A DNA stretch of 64,000 nucleotides, taken from Sphingomonadales bacterium 28-55-16 (lineage in GTDB: Bacteria; Pseudomonadota; Alphaproteobacteria; Sphingomonadales; Sphingomonadaceae). The notes beneath the pieces were generated by a model. That model was not told the DNA's origin and did not search any database. It saw only the letters and a list, made by a program, of their open reading frames with translations. The stretch is taken from positions 1-64,000 of the forward strand of contig NCGG01000013.1 of assembly GCA_002278855.1 (NCBI GenBank), in the 5' to 3' direction. The position numbers and the translations under genes were made by a program. Position 1 is the stretch's first letter, and each line of letters opens with the position of its first letter. Below, in pieces: positions 13,195-19,488 of the stretch.

Positions 13195-14535
13195 ATGGAA
13201 AAGGTTACAATTTACCGCACAATCTGGCGTTGGCATTTCTACGCGTCATTGTTCGTCATGCCGCTCATTCTCATTCTATCCACGACGGGCGCAATTTATC
13301 TGTTCAAGCCGCAATTGGACCGCTGGGAGGAGCGCGCGTTTAGCAATCTTTCGACCGATCGGTCCGTGTCACCTAATGTGCAACTCGCGGCTGTTATAGC
13401 CGCTAACCCGGGTGCCCAATTCCAAAGCTATCGGCTGCCAGACCGCAAGGGTGACGCGGCCGTGATCCATATCGGACTTGCCGATGGCCGTTCCATGCGG
13501 GATGTCTACGTATCGCCGCAGGGAAAAATACTGGCCAATGTAGATCCTGAAAGCCGTATTTCGGCAACGGTTTCGCGCATTCACGGCTCGCTTTTAATTG
13601 GCAAAATCGGCGACTGGATTGTGGAACTGGCGGCATGCTGGGCCATCGTGATGATATTGACCGGCCTGTACATGTGGTGGCCACGCGGGCAGCGGCTGGA
13701 GGGTGTCCTATGGCCTAGATTGGGAAAGGGCAATCGCGTGTTCCTGCGCGACCTGCATGCCGTTATTGGTTTTTGGGTGTCTGGCCTAGCGTTGGTTCTA
13801 TTAGCCACGGGCTTGCCTTGGGCAAGCGTTTGGGGTGACGCTTTCCGGATCGCGCGGACGGAGTTAGGGCTTGTTCACGGCGCACAAGATTGGAAATCCG
13901 GCAGCGGCGCACCACATGAAGCGCATGATCATGACGCGATGATGCGCATGCAATCGTCGGGCGTTTCTCTGGTTGGCCTTGCGGATATAGTGGCCAAGGC
14001 CGAGGCAGAAAAATTGCCGCACCCGGTGCTGGTTAAGCCGCCTGGCGCGCCCGAGCGCTTTGGTCCACCCACGCCAATGGCTTGGACTGTAAAGTCGGAA
14101 GCCCAAAACAGGCCGCTGAACCGGCAGATCACTTTCGATATCGCAACCGGTAAAGAGATGTCGCGGACCGGCTTTGCGGACAAGCATATGATTGATCGCG
14201 CGGTAAACTATGGGATCGCTTGGCACGAGGGACAGCTTTTTGGGTGGTTCAATCAGTTTGTCGGCGTTGTTACCGCGTTAGGCCTGATTACATTGGTGAT
14301 ATCAGGATTTCTGATGTGGCGGCGGCGCAAGCCCGAAAATGTGCTGGGCGCTCCATCTATGCCTTCTGTACCGCACAAAATGCGTGGTGTTGCGATCATC
14401 ATCGGCATCATGGCATTGCTGCTGCCGTTACTCGCGCTGTCTTTACTTGCGTTATGGGTTTTTGACCGGTTCTTGCTGCCGCGCGTTCCGGCTTTAGCAG
14501 CCTGGCTGGGCGTTAAACCAGCTTATCCTGCATAA
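13195..14535 (+). CDS. PepSY-associated transmembrane protein
   Basis: Inner-membrane protein of the PepSY_TM family (446 aa). Helices are at about residues 17-38 (FYASLFVMPLILILSTTGAI), 135-160, 185-210, 345-370 and 395-425. Large periplasmic PepSY-like segments lie between the first two helices and in the middle. The motif RxWRWHFYAS near the start is typical of the family. Members are often linked to siderophore or metal uptake as putative reductases, and the region HEAHDHDAMMRMQ (about 242-254) is rich in His and Met, which would suit metal binding. Function here is inferred only from the family and from the DUF2946 neighbour. Its last 13 bases overlap the convergent sufE. Confidence 0.8.
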   Translation: MEKVTIYRTIWRWHFYASLFVMPLILILSTTGAIYLFKPQLDRWEERAFSNLSTDRSVSPNVQLAAVIAANPGAQFQSYRLPDRKGDAAVIHIGLADGRSMRDVYVSPQGKILANVDPESRISATVSRIHGSLLIGKIGDWIVELAACWAIVMILTGLYMWWPRGQRLEGVLWPRLGKGNRVFLRDLHAVIGFWVSGLALVLLATGLPWASVWGDAFRIARTELGLVHGAQDWKSGSGAPHEAHDHDAMMRMQSSGVSLVGLADIVAKAEAEKLPHPVLVKPPGAPERFGPPTPMAWTVKSEAQNRPLNRQITFDIATGKEMSRTGFADKHMIDRAVNYGIAWHEGQLFGWFNQFVGVVTALGLITLVISGFLMWRRRKPENVLGAPSMPSVPHKMRGVAIIIGIMALLLPLLALSLLALWVFDRFLLPRVPALAAWLGVKPAYPA

Positions 14536-14927
14536 CGCGCAGCGGTCTCGCGGATGAGCGATATCATGTTGGGGATGCCCTGTGTCCGGTTCGAGCTTAA
14601 CTGATTTTTAAGGTCGAACGGGGCGAGGGCGCTCTCGATATCGGTCTTTAGAATATCGGCTGCGCTTTTGTTCTCGACTGTTTTGAGGACCAAGGCGATG
14701 ATGCCTTTGGTGATGGCGGCATTGCTGTCCGCAAGAAAGGTAAGTGCGCTATCTGCAGTCACCGGGTAAACCCAAACGCTTGCTGAGCATCCCCTGACCA
14801 AAGTGGCATCCGTTTTCAGTGCGTCGGGCATAGGCGCCAGTTCGCGACCAAGTTCGATCAATAGACGATAGCGGTCGTCCGCCTCGAGAAATTCATATTC
14901 TTCTTGAATGTCGATGAGTGTGGTCAT
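14523..14927 (-). CDS. sufE: SufE-type sulfur acceptor protein
   Basis: SufE accepts persulfide sulfur from the cysteine desulfurase SufS for Fe-S cluster assembly. The active cysteine is Cys47 in VRGCSASVW, the family motif. The fold length (134 aa) is normal. The start at 14927 (MTTLID) is preferred over an upstream Met because the N-terminus then matches the family. No other suf gene is in the window. It lies 25 bases after the last small membrane gene of the psp locus on the same strand, so read-through from the psp promoter is possible. It is convergent with the PepSY gene. Confidence 0.93.
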   Translation of the reverse strand: MTTLIDIQEEYEFLEADDRYRLLIELGRELAPMPDALKTDATLVRGCSASVWVYPVTADSALTFLADSNAAITKGIIALVLKTVENKSAADILKTDIESALAPFDLKNQLSSNRTQGIPNMISLIRETAARYAG

Positions 14928-14952
14928 GTGCCATCGCATATGGGGGTAAGGA

Positions 14953-15195
14953 TTATATATCAATCCCTGCCGCGATAGCCTCAAGCCTTTTGACGCGTTC
15001 TTTCAAATCGGCAACTTCGATACGCGATGCGGCCGACGGCACTGGCGTGTCGCTGCCGTGGCGCATGGTATCTAGTTCTGCATGCTTCAACGCAATCCAG
15101 TCGCGCCAGCCGCGCAAACCAAGCGAGGAGACGATCCCAACCGTGAGCATGGCAAAAGCGCCAATGATGATGTAGAAATTGGGATCCTGTTCCAT
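14953..15195 (-). CDS. Small membrane coiled-coil protein, PspB/PspC-like (psp locus, fourth accessory gene)
   Basis: An 80-residue protein with one N-terminal membrane helix (about residues 8-27, YIIIGAFAMLTVGIVSSLGL) and a C-terminal helix DLKERVKRLEAIAAGID. That helix matches the L-x-E-R-V-x-x-L-E motif in the two preceding genes and in the cytoplasmic helix of PspB. It lacks the EIExLR end of its neighbours. The ATG follows AGGAACC. It is the last of a run of small genes behind pspC and is followed 25 bases later by sufE. The function is unknown; a role in sensing or docking with PspA or PspC is an inference from position and motif. Confidence 0.65.
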   Translation of the reverse strand: MEQDPNFYIIIGAFAMLTVGIVSSLGLRGWRDWIALKHAELDTMRHGSDTPVPSAASRIEVADLKERVKRLEAIAAGIDI

Positions 15196-15222
15196 GGTTC
15201 CTATCTTTCGTTCTGCGCGCCG

Positions 15223-15495
15223 TTACCGGCCGCGTAATTCCTCAATCTGACGGTTAAGATCATTTGTGCTGCTGCTGTCCGTTGCGATGCGCTCAAGCAC
15301 CTGAACGCGTTCTTTCAACGCACGTATCTCATCCTGCATTTGCTGCGTTTCCGCACTGTTCAAAAGGCGATGGGTTTTGGTACCCATAAAGTCTTGATCT
15401 TCAACAATGCCGTTCTTGGCCTTTTGCTTTGTCTGGATAATCTTTCCGATCGTGACGATAAGGATGATCGCAACGACCATTTCAAACGGGCCCAT
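15223..15495 (-). CDS. Small membrane coiled-coil protein, PspB/PspC-like (psp locus, third accessory gene)
   Basis: A 90-residue protein. The N-terminal helix (about residues 4-19, FEMVVAIILIVTIGKI) should anchor it in the inner membrane. After a polar linker comes a coiled coil with LKERVQVLERIATD (about 61-74), and the protein ends in IEELRGR. The first motif resembles the RERIQALESIL core of E. coli PspB. The end resembles the C-terminal tail of the PspC here (AEEIESLR). Its start has a strong AGGAGG ribosome-binding site. Probably a duplicated and diverged Psp membrane component; no function is known to me. Confidence 0.68.
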   Translation of the reverse strand: MGPFEMVVAIILIVTIGKIIQTKQKAKNGIVEDQDFMGTKTHRLLNSAETQQMQDEIRALKERVQVLERIATDSSSTNDLNRQIEELRGR

Positions 15496-15542
15496 AAATT
15501 CCTCCTAGGTGTAAACATATTTGGTCAATGACGGCCTTAGGG

Positions 15543-15842
15543 TCAGCGCAGCCGTTCAATTTCTTCTGAAAGACGTCCCGCTTTGTCCGTTACAATCCGT
15601 TCAAGCACCGCAACGCGTTCTTCCAAATGGCCAATCTTGCCGTTGAGCGTCTCATTTTCGTTGCTCAGCAGCATGATTTTGCGCTCTGCTTCGGGATAGT
15701 CGCCATCGGTTAGCGCTGTCTTGCCGCCCCATTCGTCTTCCAACGGATAGCCATGTTTTGCCCGGATCCAGTTGTTTATAAGCCAACCAACCGTCAGGAG
15801 CGCAACAATTGCAATCACGAAATTTGGTCCGCCAAAGCTCAT
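15543..15842 (-). CDS. Small membrane coiled-coil protein, PspB/PspC-like (psp locus, second accessory gene)
   Basis: A 99-residue protein with an N-terminal membrane helix (about residues 8-24, FVIAIVALLTVGWLINN), a polar middle, and a coiled coil LEERVAVLERIVTD followed by LSEEIERLR at the very end. Its C-terminal 27 residues align without large gaps with the C-terminus of the PspC encoded upstream (RLAEMETYYV...LAEEIESLR). Its ATG overlaps the stop of the preceding 51-codon gene (TAATG), which fixes this start and implies translational coupling. An in-frame ATG 15 bases upstream lies inside that gene and is less likely. Confidence 0.7.
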   Translation of the reverse strand: MSFGGPNFVIAIVALLTVGWLINNWIRAKHGYPLEDEWGGKTALTDGDYPEAERKIMLLSNENETLNGKIGHLEERVAVLERIVTDKAGRLSEEIERLR

Positions 15843-15997
15843 TATAAATCCTTCCAAGGCAGGCGGCGTATGACCGGGCGGCCAGCGGTGTCGCGAAAAT
15901 CAACACTCCAGTTGCGGCGATCGGCATGGCGCTTTTTTTGGACGAAATGGCGGTATGCAAACCAGCAAATGAGACCAAGGATGACAAGCGTGAACAT
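15842..15997 (-). CDS. 51-residue membrane peptide in the psp operon
   Basis: A short gene read directly from the complementary strand: it starts MFTLVILGLICWFAYRHFV and ends RRLPWKDL, 51 codons plus TAA. Residues 2-15 or so are hydrophobic, and the rest is strongly basic (KKRHADRR) and then mixed. So it is probably a single-span inner-membrane peptide with a cytoplasmic positive tail. It starts 26 bases after pspC ends and its stop codon overlaps the next start (TAATG). The coupling, the operon position and the well-formed membrane helix argue that it is real. It could correspond in position, not in sequence, to enterobacterial PspD. Confidence 0.6.
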   Translation of the reverse strand: MFTLVILGLICWFAYRHFVQKKRHADRRNWSVDFRDTAGRPVIRRLPWKDL

Positions 15998-16023
15998 GTA
16001 AGTTCCCCTTCAATATGGTTTAA

Positions 16024-16401
16024 CTAGCGCAAGCTTTCGATTTCTTCGGCCAACTTCTTGTTGTTGCTGACATAATAGGTTTCCATTTCGGCCAGCCGGT
16101 GATCAATCTCCCGAAATCGTGAGCGGATGTCGCGGGTGGTGCGGGCAGGTGATTGACGCACGCCTTGCCAGAACTTCTGCTCTTCCCGGTCGTCGGTGTA
16201 GAGGTGAATTGGCTTTTGATCGGCCATCCACGCTGCTGCGATGTACAGCAGGATTGGCCAGCCCTGTCCTATTGTCAGCGCAATCAAACCAAGCCTAAAC
16301 CAAAGTGCATCAATTCCAGTATAATCTGCTAAACCCGCGCAGACGCCTTTCCATTTTGCATTCTGCTTATCGAGGTAGAATTTGGTGTGTTTCCCTGACA
16401 T
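16024..16401 (-). CDS. pspC: Phage shock protein C (PspC-domain membrane protein)
   Basis: Inner-membrane sensor partner of PspA and PspB in envelope stress. The PspC domain covers about residues 6-62 (FYLDKQNAKWKGVCAGLADY, then a hydrophobic helix WPILLYIAAAWMA). The C-terminal helix IDHRLAEMETYYV...LAEEIESLR corresponds to the conserved tail that follows the membrane helix in enterobacterial PspC. The length is 125 aa. The start at 16401 lies one base after the pspB stop, so translation is probably coupled. The longer upstream open frame overlaps pspB and is rejected. Confidence 0.92.
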   Translation of the reverse strand: MSGKHTKFYLDKQNAKWKGVCAGLADYTGIDALWFRLGLIALTIGQGWPILLYIAAAWMADQKPIHLYTDDREEQKFWQGVRQSPARTTRDIRSRFREIDHRLAEMETYYVSNNKKLAEEIESLR

Positions 16402-16402
16402 T

Positions 16403-16690
16403 TCAGCGATTCCTTTCCAGCTTGCGCATGTTTTCGGGGTCAAAATTTGGTGTGTCGAGTTCAATACGACGTGGTTGCCATTCTGGATTTTCCTGCGCGA
16501 CCAAGCGTTCGACGGTCTCAAGGCGGTCTTCGAGCCGGCGGGCCAGCTCATGCATATCGCCCAGCATCCGCTCGTCATCGTTGGTCAGCGTCGCGGCGGT
16601 TTTCCACCTGGTGACATAATGAAGCACAAGCCATGGAAGTGCCACAAACAGCATTCCCACAACCATGACCGGGACTAATATATCTGCCAT
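16403..16690 (-). CDS. pspB: Phage shock protein B
   Basis: Small inner-membrane protein that cooperates with PspC to relieve PspA inhibition of PspF. The membrane helix is at about residues 5-26 (LVPVMVVGMLFVALPWLVLH). HYVTRWKTA follows it, as in the family, and then a coiled coil LEDRLETVERLVAQENPEW, which matches the conserved ERIQALESIL...HPNW block of E. coli PspB. At 95 residues it is about 20 longer than E. coli PspB, with the extra length at the C-terminus. It starts 3 bases after pspA. Confidence 0.92.
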   Translation of the reverse strand: MADILVPVMVVGMLFVALPWLVLHYVTRWKTAATLTNDDERMLGDMHELARRLEDRLETVERLVAQENPEWQPRRIELDTPNFDPENMRKLERNR

Positions 16691-16693
16691 GGG

Positions 16694-17377
16694 TTAACCC
16701 TCCGTCTTTTGGCCGGCCTTCATGGCCTTTTTCATTTCTTCTAGTTCTGCATCGACGACGTCGAAGGTCTCGAGTGCTGCGATTTCGTCGCCTAAGCTGC
16801 GTGGCGCATCTGAACCGATGGAAAGCGAGTCCGCATAGCCCTGTGCCTCATCGACGCGGCGTTCGAGGACGTCGAAGCGAGAGAAAGCCTCACGCACCTT
16901 GTCGCCATTGTACATCGTGCGCAGCTTAACCTGGTTCTCGGCACTCTCCAGGCGCGTCATCAGCGCATTCTGTCGGCTACGCGCATCAGCAAGCTTTTTC
17001 TGCAGCTTGTGAATGTCCTGTTCGGACGCCTTGAGGGCGTCGTTCAATACATCGACTTCCGCCGTCAGCTGGTCCTTCATGTCGGTGGCCTTGCGCTTTT
17101 CCAGCAAAGCGGCCTTTGCAAGATCCTCACGATCCTTTGACAGAGCCAGATGCGCCTTGTCGGTCCAATCGGCTTCAAGCGTGTCTAGCTTGTCGATATG
17201 GCGACGCAGTTCTTTCTGATCAGCAATGGTGCGCGCGGCAGAAGCCCGGACCTCAACAAGTGTTTCTTCCATTTCGAGGATGATCATACGGATCATCTTT
17301 GCTGGGTCCTGTGACTTGTCGAGGAGATCGGTCACATTGGCGGCGATGATATCGCGGGTTCGTGAAAATATGCCCAT
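16694..17377 (-). CDS. pspA: Phage shock protein A (PspA/IM30/ESCRT-III family)
   Basis: Peripheral membrane protein that assembles on stressed membranes and, when unbound, inhibits the activator PspF. The start MGIFSRTRDII at 17377 is the canonical amphipathic N-terminus of PspA, followed by LLDKSQDPAKMIRMII, the family signature. The rest is nearly all alpha-helix and coiled coil (about residues 25-185), ending in a charged region. The length of 227 aa is typical. An open frame extends 41 codons upstream but has no family match there. The gene lies 103 bases after the small membrane gene, with a hairpin in the gap. Confidence 0.96.
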   Translation of the reverse strand: MGIFSRTRDIIAANVTDLLDKSQDPAKMIRMIILEMEETLVEVRASAARTIADQKELRRHIDKLDTLEADWTDKAHLALSKDREDLAKAALLEKRKATDMKDQLTAEVDVLNDALKASEQDIHKLQKKLADARSRQNALMTRLESAENQVKLRTMYNGDKVREAFSRFDVLERRVDEAQGYADSLSIGSDAPRSLGDEIAALETFDVVDAELEEMKKAMKAGQKTEG

Positions 17378-17423
17378 TGGGTAACTCCGATAATGTTTAT
17401 TGGCGACTTCATTAAAATAGGGG

Positions 17424-17468
17424 GCGACCGGGTGCTTTTTCTGGGGGAGGCTAGGGCACTCCGGTCGC
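17424..17468 (-). other. Hairpin between the first psp gene and pspA
   Basis: Read on the minus strand, GCGACCGG-A-GTGC and GCACCCGGTCGC pair over 12 bases with one bulged A, leaving a loop of about 20. CCCCTATTTT follows. It is not a full intrinsic terminator, but it could attenuate transcription into pspA or protect one mRNA segment. It starts 12 bases after the stop of the upstream small gene. Confidence 0.5.
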
Positions 17469-17480
17469 AGGCTTCCGATA

Positions 17481-17669
17481 TCAGGCAAGATAGCTGACAA
17501 CGAATGGCCTAGGGCTCAAAATATGCGTATTCTTTCCACCGGCGTCGCGATGATTGAGGACCGACAGGGCATAGCTCGTAAAGATCATACTGATCGACAA
17601 AGCGACTGCCAGCCAGAGACGGCTTTCTTGTGCTTTGCCCTTGTGGTTCTTTTCGATATCTTTGCGCAT
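17481..17669 (-). CDS. 62-residue membrane protein, first gene of the psp operon
   Basis: I do not recognise the family. The N-terminus is basic (MRKDIEKNHKGKAQ), a single membrane helix spans about residues 23-43 (LWLAVALSISMIFTSYALSVL), and the C-terminal 20 or so residues would face the periplasm. The ATG at 17669 has an AAAGGGA ribosome-binding site at good spacing, better than any upstream start. A sigma-54 promoter match (17721-17737) lies about 50 bases upstream, and pspA follows 103 bases downstream, so this is the promoter-proximal gene of the stress operon. An unannotated small stress-induced protein is the best description. Confidence 0.65.
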   Translation of the reverse strand: MRKDIEKNHKGKAQESRLWLAVALSISMIFTSYALSVLNHRDAGGKNTHILSPRPFVVSYLA

Positions 17670-17720
17670 CTGTTTATTCCCTTTGCTGCGGTCGGGGTTT
17701 TGCCGACTTGCGGAGCGCCA

Positions 17721-17737
17721 TGCAGGGACCGTGCCAA
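17721..17737 (-). promoter_or_regulatory. Sigma-54 (RpoN) promoter of the psp operon
   Basis: On the minus strand the sequence TTGGCACG-GTCC-CTGCA matches the sigma-54 consensus TTGGCACG-N4-TTGCW with one change. The invariant GG (-24) and GC (-12) have the required spacing. PspF, a sigma-54 activator, is encoded divergently 100 bases away, which is the standard psp arrangement. Its binding sites should lie in 17738-17836. I could not define them with confidence. Confidence 0.8.
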
Positions 17738-17836
17738 TTCGCATTATTGTTGCATTTTGGCCATTTGTTAAAAAATGTGACGATATGATACTGGTAATTA
17801 TTGCCACTCTATGGTGAAATATGCCAATATTTGAAA

Positions 17837-18874
17837 ATGGATCGTGATAATATTCAGTTTATTGGCCAATCATCCGCATTTTTGGATGCGGTCGAGCGTG
17901 CGAGCCGCGCTGCACCCCTGAATAGGCCCGTATTGGTAGTTGGCGAGCGTGGGACCGGCAAGGAATTGATCGCCGAGCGGCTTCATCGCTTAAGCGGTCG
18001 CTGGGACGGACCTTTAGTCACGATTAACTGTGCGGCTTTGCCGGAAACTCTGATTGAGGCCGAGCTTTTTGGTCATGAGACAGGCGCGTTTACGGGGGCA
18101 ACACGTGCGCGCGAGGGGCGGTTTGAAGAAGCCGACGGCGGTACGTTATTTCTGGATGAACTTGGCACATTAAGCATGGGTGCGCAGGAACGGTTGTTGC
18201 GCGCGGTGGAGTATGGCGAGGTTACACGTATCGGGTCATCGCGGCCCATGCGCGTCGATGTGCGCATTGTGGCTGCAACCAATGAGCACCTCCCCAATAT
18301 GGTCGACAAGGGGCGTTTCAGAGCCGATTTGCTCGACCGGCTATGCTTTGAAGTTATCACGCTGCCGCCGCTGCGTGTGCGTGAAGGCGATATTGAGGTG
18401 CTGTCTGAATATTATGGGCGCAAGATGGCGGCGGAACTGGGTTGGGACGGCTGGCCTGGATTTGGTGAAGTCGCTACCCGCGCGCTGGAAAACCATCTCT
18501 GGCCGGGCAATGTGCGCGAATTGCGAAATGTTGTTGAACGTGCCGTGTATCGTTGGGCCGACCCGGCACAGCCAGTCGATTACATCCAGTTCGATCCGTT
18601 CGACAGCCCATGGCGCGGGGGCATTGCGTCTTCTGCGCCTGCGCAAGTACAAGCCGACAATCAGAATGATACAGTTGCGCTGCATCACGCCACTGATCTT
18701 AGTCAAGCAGCAGATGTGTCTGATTTTCGCGAGGCGATCGAGAAATTTGAAAAAGCCGTTCTGGAGCAAGCGCTTGCCAAATGCCGATATAATCAGCGCC
18801 AAACCGCCAAGGCGCTCAACCTCAGCTATGATCAACTGCGTCATACTTTGAAAAAACACGACCTGTTGGGATAA
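17837..18874 (+). CDS. pspF: PspF, sigma-54-dependent activator of the phage-shock operon
   Basis: AAA+ activator that opens sigma-54 promoters. Walker A is GERGTGKE (near residue 36), the sigma-54 contact loop is ETGAFTGA, Walker B is GTLFLDELG, and the arginine region RFRADLLDRL is present. A C-terminal Fis-type helix-turn-helix (RYNQRQTAKALNLSYDQLRHTL) binds DNA. There is no N-terminal receiver or GAF domain, which is the hallmark of PspF; it is instead held back by PspA. The start at 17837 (MDRDNIQFIGQS) matches the family. The ribosome-binding site is weak, which would suit low expression. It is divergent from the psp operon. Confidence 0.93.
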   Translation: MDRDNIQFIGQSSAFLDAVERASRAAPLNRPVLVVGERGTGKELIAERLHRLSGRWDGPLVTINCAALPETLIEAELFGHETGAFTGATRAREGRFEEADGGTLFLDELGTLSMGAQERLLRAVEYGEVTRIGSSRPMRVDVRIVAATNEHLPNMVDKGRFRADLLDRLCFEVITLPPLRVREGDIEVLSEYYGRKMAAELGWDGWPGFGEVATRALENHLWPGNVRELRNVVERAVYRWADPAQPVDYIQFDPFDSPWRGGIASSAPAQVQADNQNDTVALHHATDLSQAADVSDFREAIEKFEKAVLEQALAKCRYNQRQTAKALNLSYDQLRHTLKKHDLLG

Positions 18875-18905
18875 AAAAAGGGGCGGCAATTGCCACCCCT
18901 TTCTT
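18873..18905. terminator. Terminator between pspF and the convergent membrane gene
   Basis: AAAAAAAGGGGCGGCAATTGCCACCCCTTTCTT forms a hairpin with GGGGCGGCA/TGCCACCCC arms (one mismatch). The A-run on one side would be a T-run for the minus-strand gene, and weak Ts serve the plus strand. It lies directly at the end of pspF. Confidence 0.7.
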
Positions 18906-18924
18906 GAAATGGGATGTCGGACAA

Positions 18925-19488
18925 TTAGCCTCCGTTGAAGCTGACCATCGTGTAGAGCATCGGGATCGAAAGCAATGTGTTGAGGCGCGAAGTCATCATC
19001 GCAGTTGTTGCCGCCTTTGCCTTTGTCGCGTCATCTGCTTCAACGATTCCAAGTGCTTTCTTCTGGTTTGGCCAGATGATGAACCACACATTGAAAGCCA
19101 TGATGACAGCAAGCCACATGCCAACGCCAATCAGCCTGTATGGATCTTGCAGCGTAAAGGCCTGATGCGCATAGCCGGCTTGAACCGAAATGATGAGGCC
19201 AAGCAAAACCGTCAGCGCAGCAGCCCAACGGAAAAAGAACAACGCTGATGGCGCGATGTGCTTCGAAATGCCCGGCTTCAATTCGGCAGGGATTTTCGGC
19301 ATTGTTGGGATTTGGACGAAGTTGAAGTAATACAACAAGCCAATCCAGACGATTCCAAAGAATGTGTGCAGCCAACGTGCGACCGATTGCGCGGTCAAGC
19401 CATCACTGTCCAGTCCGAACATGACTGCCAATGACAGCACCAGACCGGCGACGAGCACCAGATGTAGATTTCCAAAAAATTTCGCCAT
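18925..19488 (-). CDS. Membrane protein resembling the N-terminal domain of PuuD urate hydroxylase (Urate_ox_N)
   Basis: A 187-residue protein with about five membrane helices (about residues 8-25, 40-58, 82-104, 118-137 and 165-183). ARWLHTFFGIVWIGLLYYFNFVQ (read as two blocks) matches the Urate_ox_N family, the membrane half of PuuD. PuuD itself also has a C-terminal cytochrome c domain, which is absent here, so uric acid oxidation by this protein alone is doubtful. Stand-alone forms are common in sphingomonads. The His residues in the first helices could bind haem, but that is inference. It is divergent from sodB. Confidence 0.7.
   Translation of the reverse strand: MAKFFGNLHLVLVAGLVLSLAVMFGLDSDGLTAQSVARWLHTFFGIVWIGLLYYFNFVQIPTMPKIPAELKPGISKHIAPSALFFFRWAAALTVLLGLIISVQAGYAHQAFTLQDPYRLIGVGMWLAVIMAFNVWFIIWPNQKKALGIVEADDATKAKAATTAMMTSRLNTLLSIPMLYTMVSFNGG

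Follow-up and report, generated by a model that had tools for sequence, protein, structure and literature searches.

The psp locus described here lies in a 64,000-nt stretch of Sphingomonadales bacterium 28-55-16, which as a whole we call the window. Read along the minus strand, a sigma-54-type site is followed by a 62-aa leader gene, pspA, pspB, pspC, X51, A99, B90, C80 and sufE, as set out below, with pspF on the other strand.

17831..18874, plus strand: pspF, divergent sigma-54 activator gene (TIGR02974, 483.6 bits against a cut-off of 443.55); the coordinates assume a TTG start, the true start not being settled
17721..17736, minus strand: sigma-54-type promoter site TGGCACGGTCCCTGCA, lying 343 nt ahead of the start of pspA
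17481..17669, minus strand: leader gene, 62 aa, with a single predicted membrane helix, between the promoter site and pspA
16694..17377, minus strand: pspA (TIGR02977, 266.9 bits against a cut-off of 242.95), starting MGIFSR
16403..16690, minus strand: pspB (TIGR02976, 88.7 bits against a cut-off of 51.7; PF06667, 91.4 bits)
16024..16401, minus strand: pspC (TIGR02978, 114.4 bits against a cut-off of 104), with the tail end EEIESLR
15842..15997, minus strand: X51, a 51-aa protein lacking a coiled-coil tail and predicted to have a single membrane helix; the gene overlaps A99 by one base, its final base being also the opening base of the A99 start codon
15543..15842, minus strand: A99, array protein of 99 aa
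15223..15495, minus strand: B90, array protein of 90 aa
14953..15195, minus strand: C80, array protein of 80 aa, last in the row, whose tail holds the first half of the core only
14523..14927, minus strand: sufE, which closes the array (PF02657, SufE, 116 bits)

The first-pass annotation had reported the 99-, 90- and 80-aa genes, and their coordinates, lengths and motifs were all found to be correct. Its description of each protein as one N-terminal membrane helix (predicted) followed by a tail of the form L[EK]ERVxxLE is borne out by the core motifs LEERVAVLE, LKERVQVLE and LKERVKRLE of the 99-, 90- and 80-aa proteins, respectively, next to LEDRLETVE in the window's PspB. The likeness that it saw between the protein ends and that of PspC (EIESLR) holds for A99 (EIERLR) and B90 (IEELRGR); C80 has no IExLR end. 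The pattern also goes beyond chance, with A99, B90 and C80 matches at E ≤ 0.001 in 45, 42 and 36 of 61 relatives' genomes, and within its own genome an A99 query matches B90 (E 1e-5, 40% identity). The first-pass annotation missed X51, the sigma-54-type promoter and the 62-aa leader gene. In the Pfam and NCBIfam scans, X51, A99, B90 and C80 gave no family above its cut-off, and Rfam gave no match within 13500-19000 of the window.

The promoter site surfaced when 600 nt upstream were searched with any base permitted before TGC; a scored sigma-54 scan over 350 nt upstream did not detect it. The pattern TGGC[AG][CT]N6TGC[AT], which was picked after the result of the 350-nt scan, occurs in 95 of 108 upstream stretches vs. 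8 of 2160 shuffles. The pattern TGGCN7TTGCW was not found before pspA and occurs six times in the window (shuffle mean 2.6; at least six in 6 of 100 shuffles). At the place of the leader gene, 72 of the 78 family loci with a site carry a frame of at least 40 aa starting with ATG, 69 of them with a membrane-like segment, a count made without a shuffle control; the leader frames in the family often end in -LA or -VA. Together, the site and the gene spacing fit a predicted membership of the array in the Psp regulon, under a PspF/sigma-54 promoter.

Among 36 genus genomes, including the window's, the array is made up of at most seven slots in a single order, D90, X51, A99, A108, A98, B90 and C80, present in 7, 21, 33, 24, 21, 34 and 36 genomes, respectively, where absences weigh little in three genomes (G014, G011 and G036) whose loci are cut by contig ends. 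The window fills the X51, A99, B90 and C80 slots, and the genome with the best A99 match (G026, 99%) additionally has A108 and A98. Two A108 genes, on two contigs, are found in G011. X51, which has a membrane-like N-terminus, lies between pspC and A99 in the genus, and none of 60 family loci holds a gene under the X51 class. One genus genome, G003, gave no pspA match.

The same arrangement extends across the sphingomonad family. In 59 of 60 family psp loci, covering 59 genera and drawn from well-scoring PspC matches (one genus is represented twice, and a further four candidates were not included), one to nine array genes lie behind pspC on the same strand, closely spaced and 268 in total. Four is the commonest array size (20 loci), followed by five (15) and three (10); seven genes were counted in five loci, six in three, two and eight in two each, and one and nine in one each. 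The gaps have a median of 22 nt and are at most 60 nt in 251 of 268 cases. The array, or pspC, is followed by sufE in 57 of 60 loci, and C80 is the last array gene in all 54 loci that hold it, the class names in these loci being nearest-model labels at E ≤ 0.01 and not statements of orthology. A99-type proteins used as queries against named genomes picked out 465 relatives. In each of the best 80, a set that includes Sphingorhabdus, Sphingomonas, Sphingobium, Blastomonas, Sphingosinicella, Pacificimonas and Chakrabartia, pspC is the upstream neighbour on the same strand (80 of 80); all of these linkage counts rest on related genomes. The neighbourhood survey that the first-pass annotation proposed thus shows family-wide linkage to pspABC. 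Its reading of a multiplied membrane arm is partly supported, and the scale of the multiplication was understated.

An alignment (A1) made of B90-type proteins together with the single relatives found in sister families has matches in 235 of 249 family genomes, covering 83 of 91 genera; TIGR02978 (PspC) has matches in 238 of the 249. Fourteen family genomes give no A1 match. These include all 11 that lack PspC, which give no pspA match either. The other three A1-negative genomes have PspC: one (G130) has a single C80-type gene between pspC and sufE, one (G151, in 660 contigs) gave no match, and one (G105) has pspABC followed by sufE, with the array gene absent. Twelve family genomes of at least 90% completeness (G075, G091, G117, G125, G142, G147, G171, G186, G194, G236, G277 and G003) gave no pspA match, and the whole Psp system seems to be dispensable in several genera.

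Outside the family, two of 19 sister-family psp loci (L110 and L112) have an array-like gene, one each, and sufE directly follows pspC in six (L102, L103, L104, L114, L118 and L119). Since no array lies between pspC and sufE in those six loci, the sufE neighbour came first. Single array relatives away from psp were found in 12 of 24 genomes of the order, and a search with A1 over 134 class-wide genomes matched the window's own genome and two of the family only. The multiplied array is thus, as far as searched, a mark of one family, with single relatives in its sister families. In L110 (3971-4225) and L112 (3960-4196), pspC is directly followed by another, short gene that encodes a PspC domain and no tail, and then by the one array-like gene, as if PspC had been split into its domain and its tail. 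The same two genomes have a further single array-like gene (L120 and L129) beside a gene which, recognised by eye, we take to be rpoD-like.

The array proteins share a common build. By hydropathy, 261 of 268 have a single membrane-like segment at the N-terminus, and 226 of those 261 carry more positive charge after the segment than before it, predicting a cytoplasmic tail. An AlphaFold2 model of A99 consists of helices at residues 6-30 and 50-98, the second with a confidence of about 81 over its first ten residues and 90-95 beyond; with a pTM of 0.37, the arrangement of the helices in this model is not to be trusted. Between paralogues of one genome, C80 excluded, the 28-residue core is on average 52% identical vs. 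25% over the first 45 residues, and core identity exceeds that of the membrane end in 304 of 311 pairs, in a comparison that favours the core, which was cut out by its motif. Within a class, the first 45 residues are 58-70% identical across the genus. The conservation of the tail between paralogues suggests that it serves one shared cytoplasmic partner.

Signs of exchange between the tails were also looked for. Half-by-half class models, built with the suspected recombinants included, counted no mosaic gene among 154. Inspection by eye showed a 108-aa-class tail at the end of the 99-class protein in G006, G034 and G025; the closing letters of the 99-class gene in G034 and G006 are near those at the end of the 108-aa gene in other genomes, and the spacer after the 99-class gene is also alike in G034 and differs in G006. 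The B90-class proteins of G015 and G031 start like a 95-aa protein of G005. Two loci, L077 and L093, carry A99-class genes with a 108-aa-class tail, the 108-aa class itself being missing from both genomes; these genes are likely to have arisen through deletions between paralogous tails.

How closely the array proteins are related to PspB and PspC was examined by profile. The array proteins tested were those of the window and a random sample of 60 out of the 268, and none passes a curated cut-off for PspB or PspC in Pfam or NCBIfam. Against TIGR02976 (PspB), A99 (P0001) scores 14.0 bits and B90 (P0002) 12.1 bits vs. a cut-off of 51.7, and C80 (P0003) has no match. B90 scores 9.2 bits against Pfam PspB (cut-off 25.6) and matches TIGR02978 and TIGR02976 weakly (E 0.011 and 0.18, respectively); A99 is likewise a weak match to both PspB and PspC models. 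The PspC domain, PF04024, is not among the matches listed at E ≤ 10 for P0001-P0003 or P0006. When the 60 sampled proteins were scanned singly against NCBIfam (18,950 models) and Pfam, the four most-matched NCBIfam models were a PspC model (30 proteins), two PspB models (25 and 14) and another PspC model (13), the next model matching 6; the best TIGR02976 E-value was 9.1e-6. In Pfam, PspB leads with 18 of the same 60, with LapA_dom (11) and bZIP (9) close behind, and the single best E-values of ZapB and DivIC are better than that of PspB. The description of these proteins as PspB/PspC-like therefore stands to the extent that PspB and PspC models lead both libraries, whereas their being PspB or PspC proper is not supported, as no curated cut-off is reached.

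Models built from sister-family sequences (10 PspB and 11 PspC) separate the array from the remaining 4,222 frames of these loci, most of which are not genes, with PspA, a long coiled coil, as the hard control. With the threshold set at E ≤ 1, the hits of the PspB model comprise 175 of 268 array proteins and no background frame; those of the PspC model comprise 97 array proteins, no background frame and one PspA; and those of a model of the PspC tail comprise 76 array proteins and one background frame. Tightening the threshold to E ≤ 0.01 leaves 39, 6 and 7 of the 268, respectively, and no background. The hhalign probability, from single-pair comparisons with single-pair E-values, is 93 for the array type vs. 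PspB, 80 vs. PspC and 19 for PspB vs. PspC. In the array-less genome G105, the array profile has just two matches at E ≤ 0.1, on PspC (0.0012) and PspB (0.0019). The psp-less G003 gave a stray match (E 0.0013). In the window's genome, PspB (0.023) ranks below an unrelated frame (0.009), and PspC is absent at E ≤ 10. A PDB sequence search with the array profile returned coiled coils of many kinds, the best being the KcsA channel (E 0.0011); the window's own PspC gave a best E-value of 0.56. The array's ending [EQ][IV]xx[LI]R, which 188 of the 214 non-C80 array proteins carry, closes the PspC tail in 60 of 60 family, 33 of 35 genus and 1 of 19 sister-family loci, which is one contrast between related groups and not many independent ones. 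From these profile results, we conclude that the kinship of the array with PspB, and probably with PspC, is real but distant, carried by the tail and the layout, and that it does not amount to family membership.

What the array may do is best approached through PspC. The C-terminal domain of PspC is reported to bind PspA (PMC5596341), and in E. coli the PspC leucine zipper is reported to be required for the interaction with PspA (PMC3068692); there is dispute over the membrane side that the E. coli PspC tail occupies (PMC3068692). Because the tail region of PspC is reported to bind PspA, we consider the likeliest role of the array to be that of extra membrane anchors for PspA. The predicted single-pass proteins, whose shared tail is a distant profile relative of those of PspB and PspC, would thus be additional PspA docking sites, a reading that we judge about evenly balanced between right and wrong. 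E. coli PspB is reported to self-associate and bind PspC, and not to bind PspA directly (PMC3068692); if the array is PspB-like in function, direct binding of PspA by the array is less likely. In the proposed mechanism, PspF and sigma-54 would turn on the whole cluster under envelope stress, and the array proteins would insert in the membrane with the tail in the cytoplasm, where it would pair with the tails of PspC, PspB and other array proteins. The paired-tail surface would bind PspA, drawing it off PspF for more induction and also keeping it on the membrane. A tail multiplied on separate membrane helices would provide more docking places for PspA, or more partners for PspC, and the differing helices would put these sites in differing membrane surroundings. 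A bolder form of the proposal, which we offer only tentatively and would not expect to hold in full, is that the array is combinatorial: each species would have up to nine interchangeable anchors with one PspA-binding tail on different membrane helices, and recombination between tails would reshuffle the sets, so that the number and kind of docking sites would be set species by species.

The multiplicity of one to nine genes would also suit a structural part, and the array proteins could be effectors rather than docks, i.e., small stress-induced proteins which form mixed coiled-coil bundles that steady the damaged inner membrane, as PspB and PspC may do without PspA; in Yersinia, PspB and PspC alone can counter mislocalised secretins (PMC5596341). 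However, the paralogues keep the tail and not the membrane part, and we regard an effector role as somewhat unlikely. The membrane part is central to another explanation, in which every helix would detect its own type of damage and pass the signal on, by way of the shared tail, to PspC, PspA and PspF. This is in keeping with membrane ends that differ between paralogues while being conserved across the genus within each class. The array sets of the species vary widely, however, which fits fine tuning better than fixed senses, and separate sensors appear rather improbable to us.

That the array consists of ordinary membrane coiled-coil proteins which merely happen to lie in the cluster, their likeness to PspB and PspC being generic, agrees with the curated cut-offs that none of them reaches and with the varied coiled coils returned from the PDB. 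The first-pass annotation had named such generic likeness as an outcome that would count against it, and the profile tests found a likeness that goes further. The generic coiled coil was rejected because PspB and PspC lead the NCBIfam and Pfam libraries, while the sister-family models nearly spare PspA and, at full length, pick no background at all; we hold this explanation to be very improbable. Lastly, sufE is the next gene in nearly all family loci, and the array could serve SufE and iron-sulphur work rather than the Psp response. However, the sister-family loci show sufE behind pspC before any array, the 11 psp-less genomes are without an array match, and a SufE role is hardly credible.

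How PspA is recruited to damaged membrane, and how much of this is decided by its membrane partners, is a live question. The family offers a natural series, from none to nine extra candidate partners with one kind of tail on many helices, and such a series makes it possible to ask which part does the sensing and which the docking. It also provides an array context for many genes which, where sources name them, are mostly 'hypothetical proteins'. Sphingomonads carry surface sphingolipids in place of LPS (PMC11165598), and that this surface is the reason for needing the array is a guess on our part. Among the literature matches listed for the open-licence literature, no title announces such an array, and no word beginning with 'sphingo' appears in the main text of PMC11237479 and PMC9239133.

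Among known systems, the enterobacterial Psp response also includes the small proteins PspD and PspG (PMC3068692, PMC11237479). Neither name is among the matches listed for the window's small proteins. PspD and PspG are not known as tandem families. Closer is the mention of 'PspB duplicates' in psp operons, given in one line of PMC11237479 (section 17, with AOL22920.1 as the example), which resemble the array as extra PspB-like genes in a pspFABC cluster; that line names no organism and does not describe array size, order, spread or a shared tail, and AOL22920.1 may be a member of this very array. The tail of PspC is similar to the array by ungapped likeness over its end, including the final [EQ]IxxLR in the sphingomonad family, whereas the array proteins are without the PspC domain, which in PspC precedes the tail, and stay below the PspC cut-off. 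With PspB, the array shares its size, one N-terminal membrane helix, the tail L-E-x-R-x-x-x-[LM]-E-R-[IL] and the same cluster. However, the array proteins are without the W-R end of PspB (alignment A4), and as many as nine of them can accompany a normal pspB.
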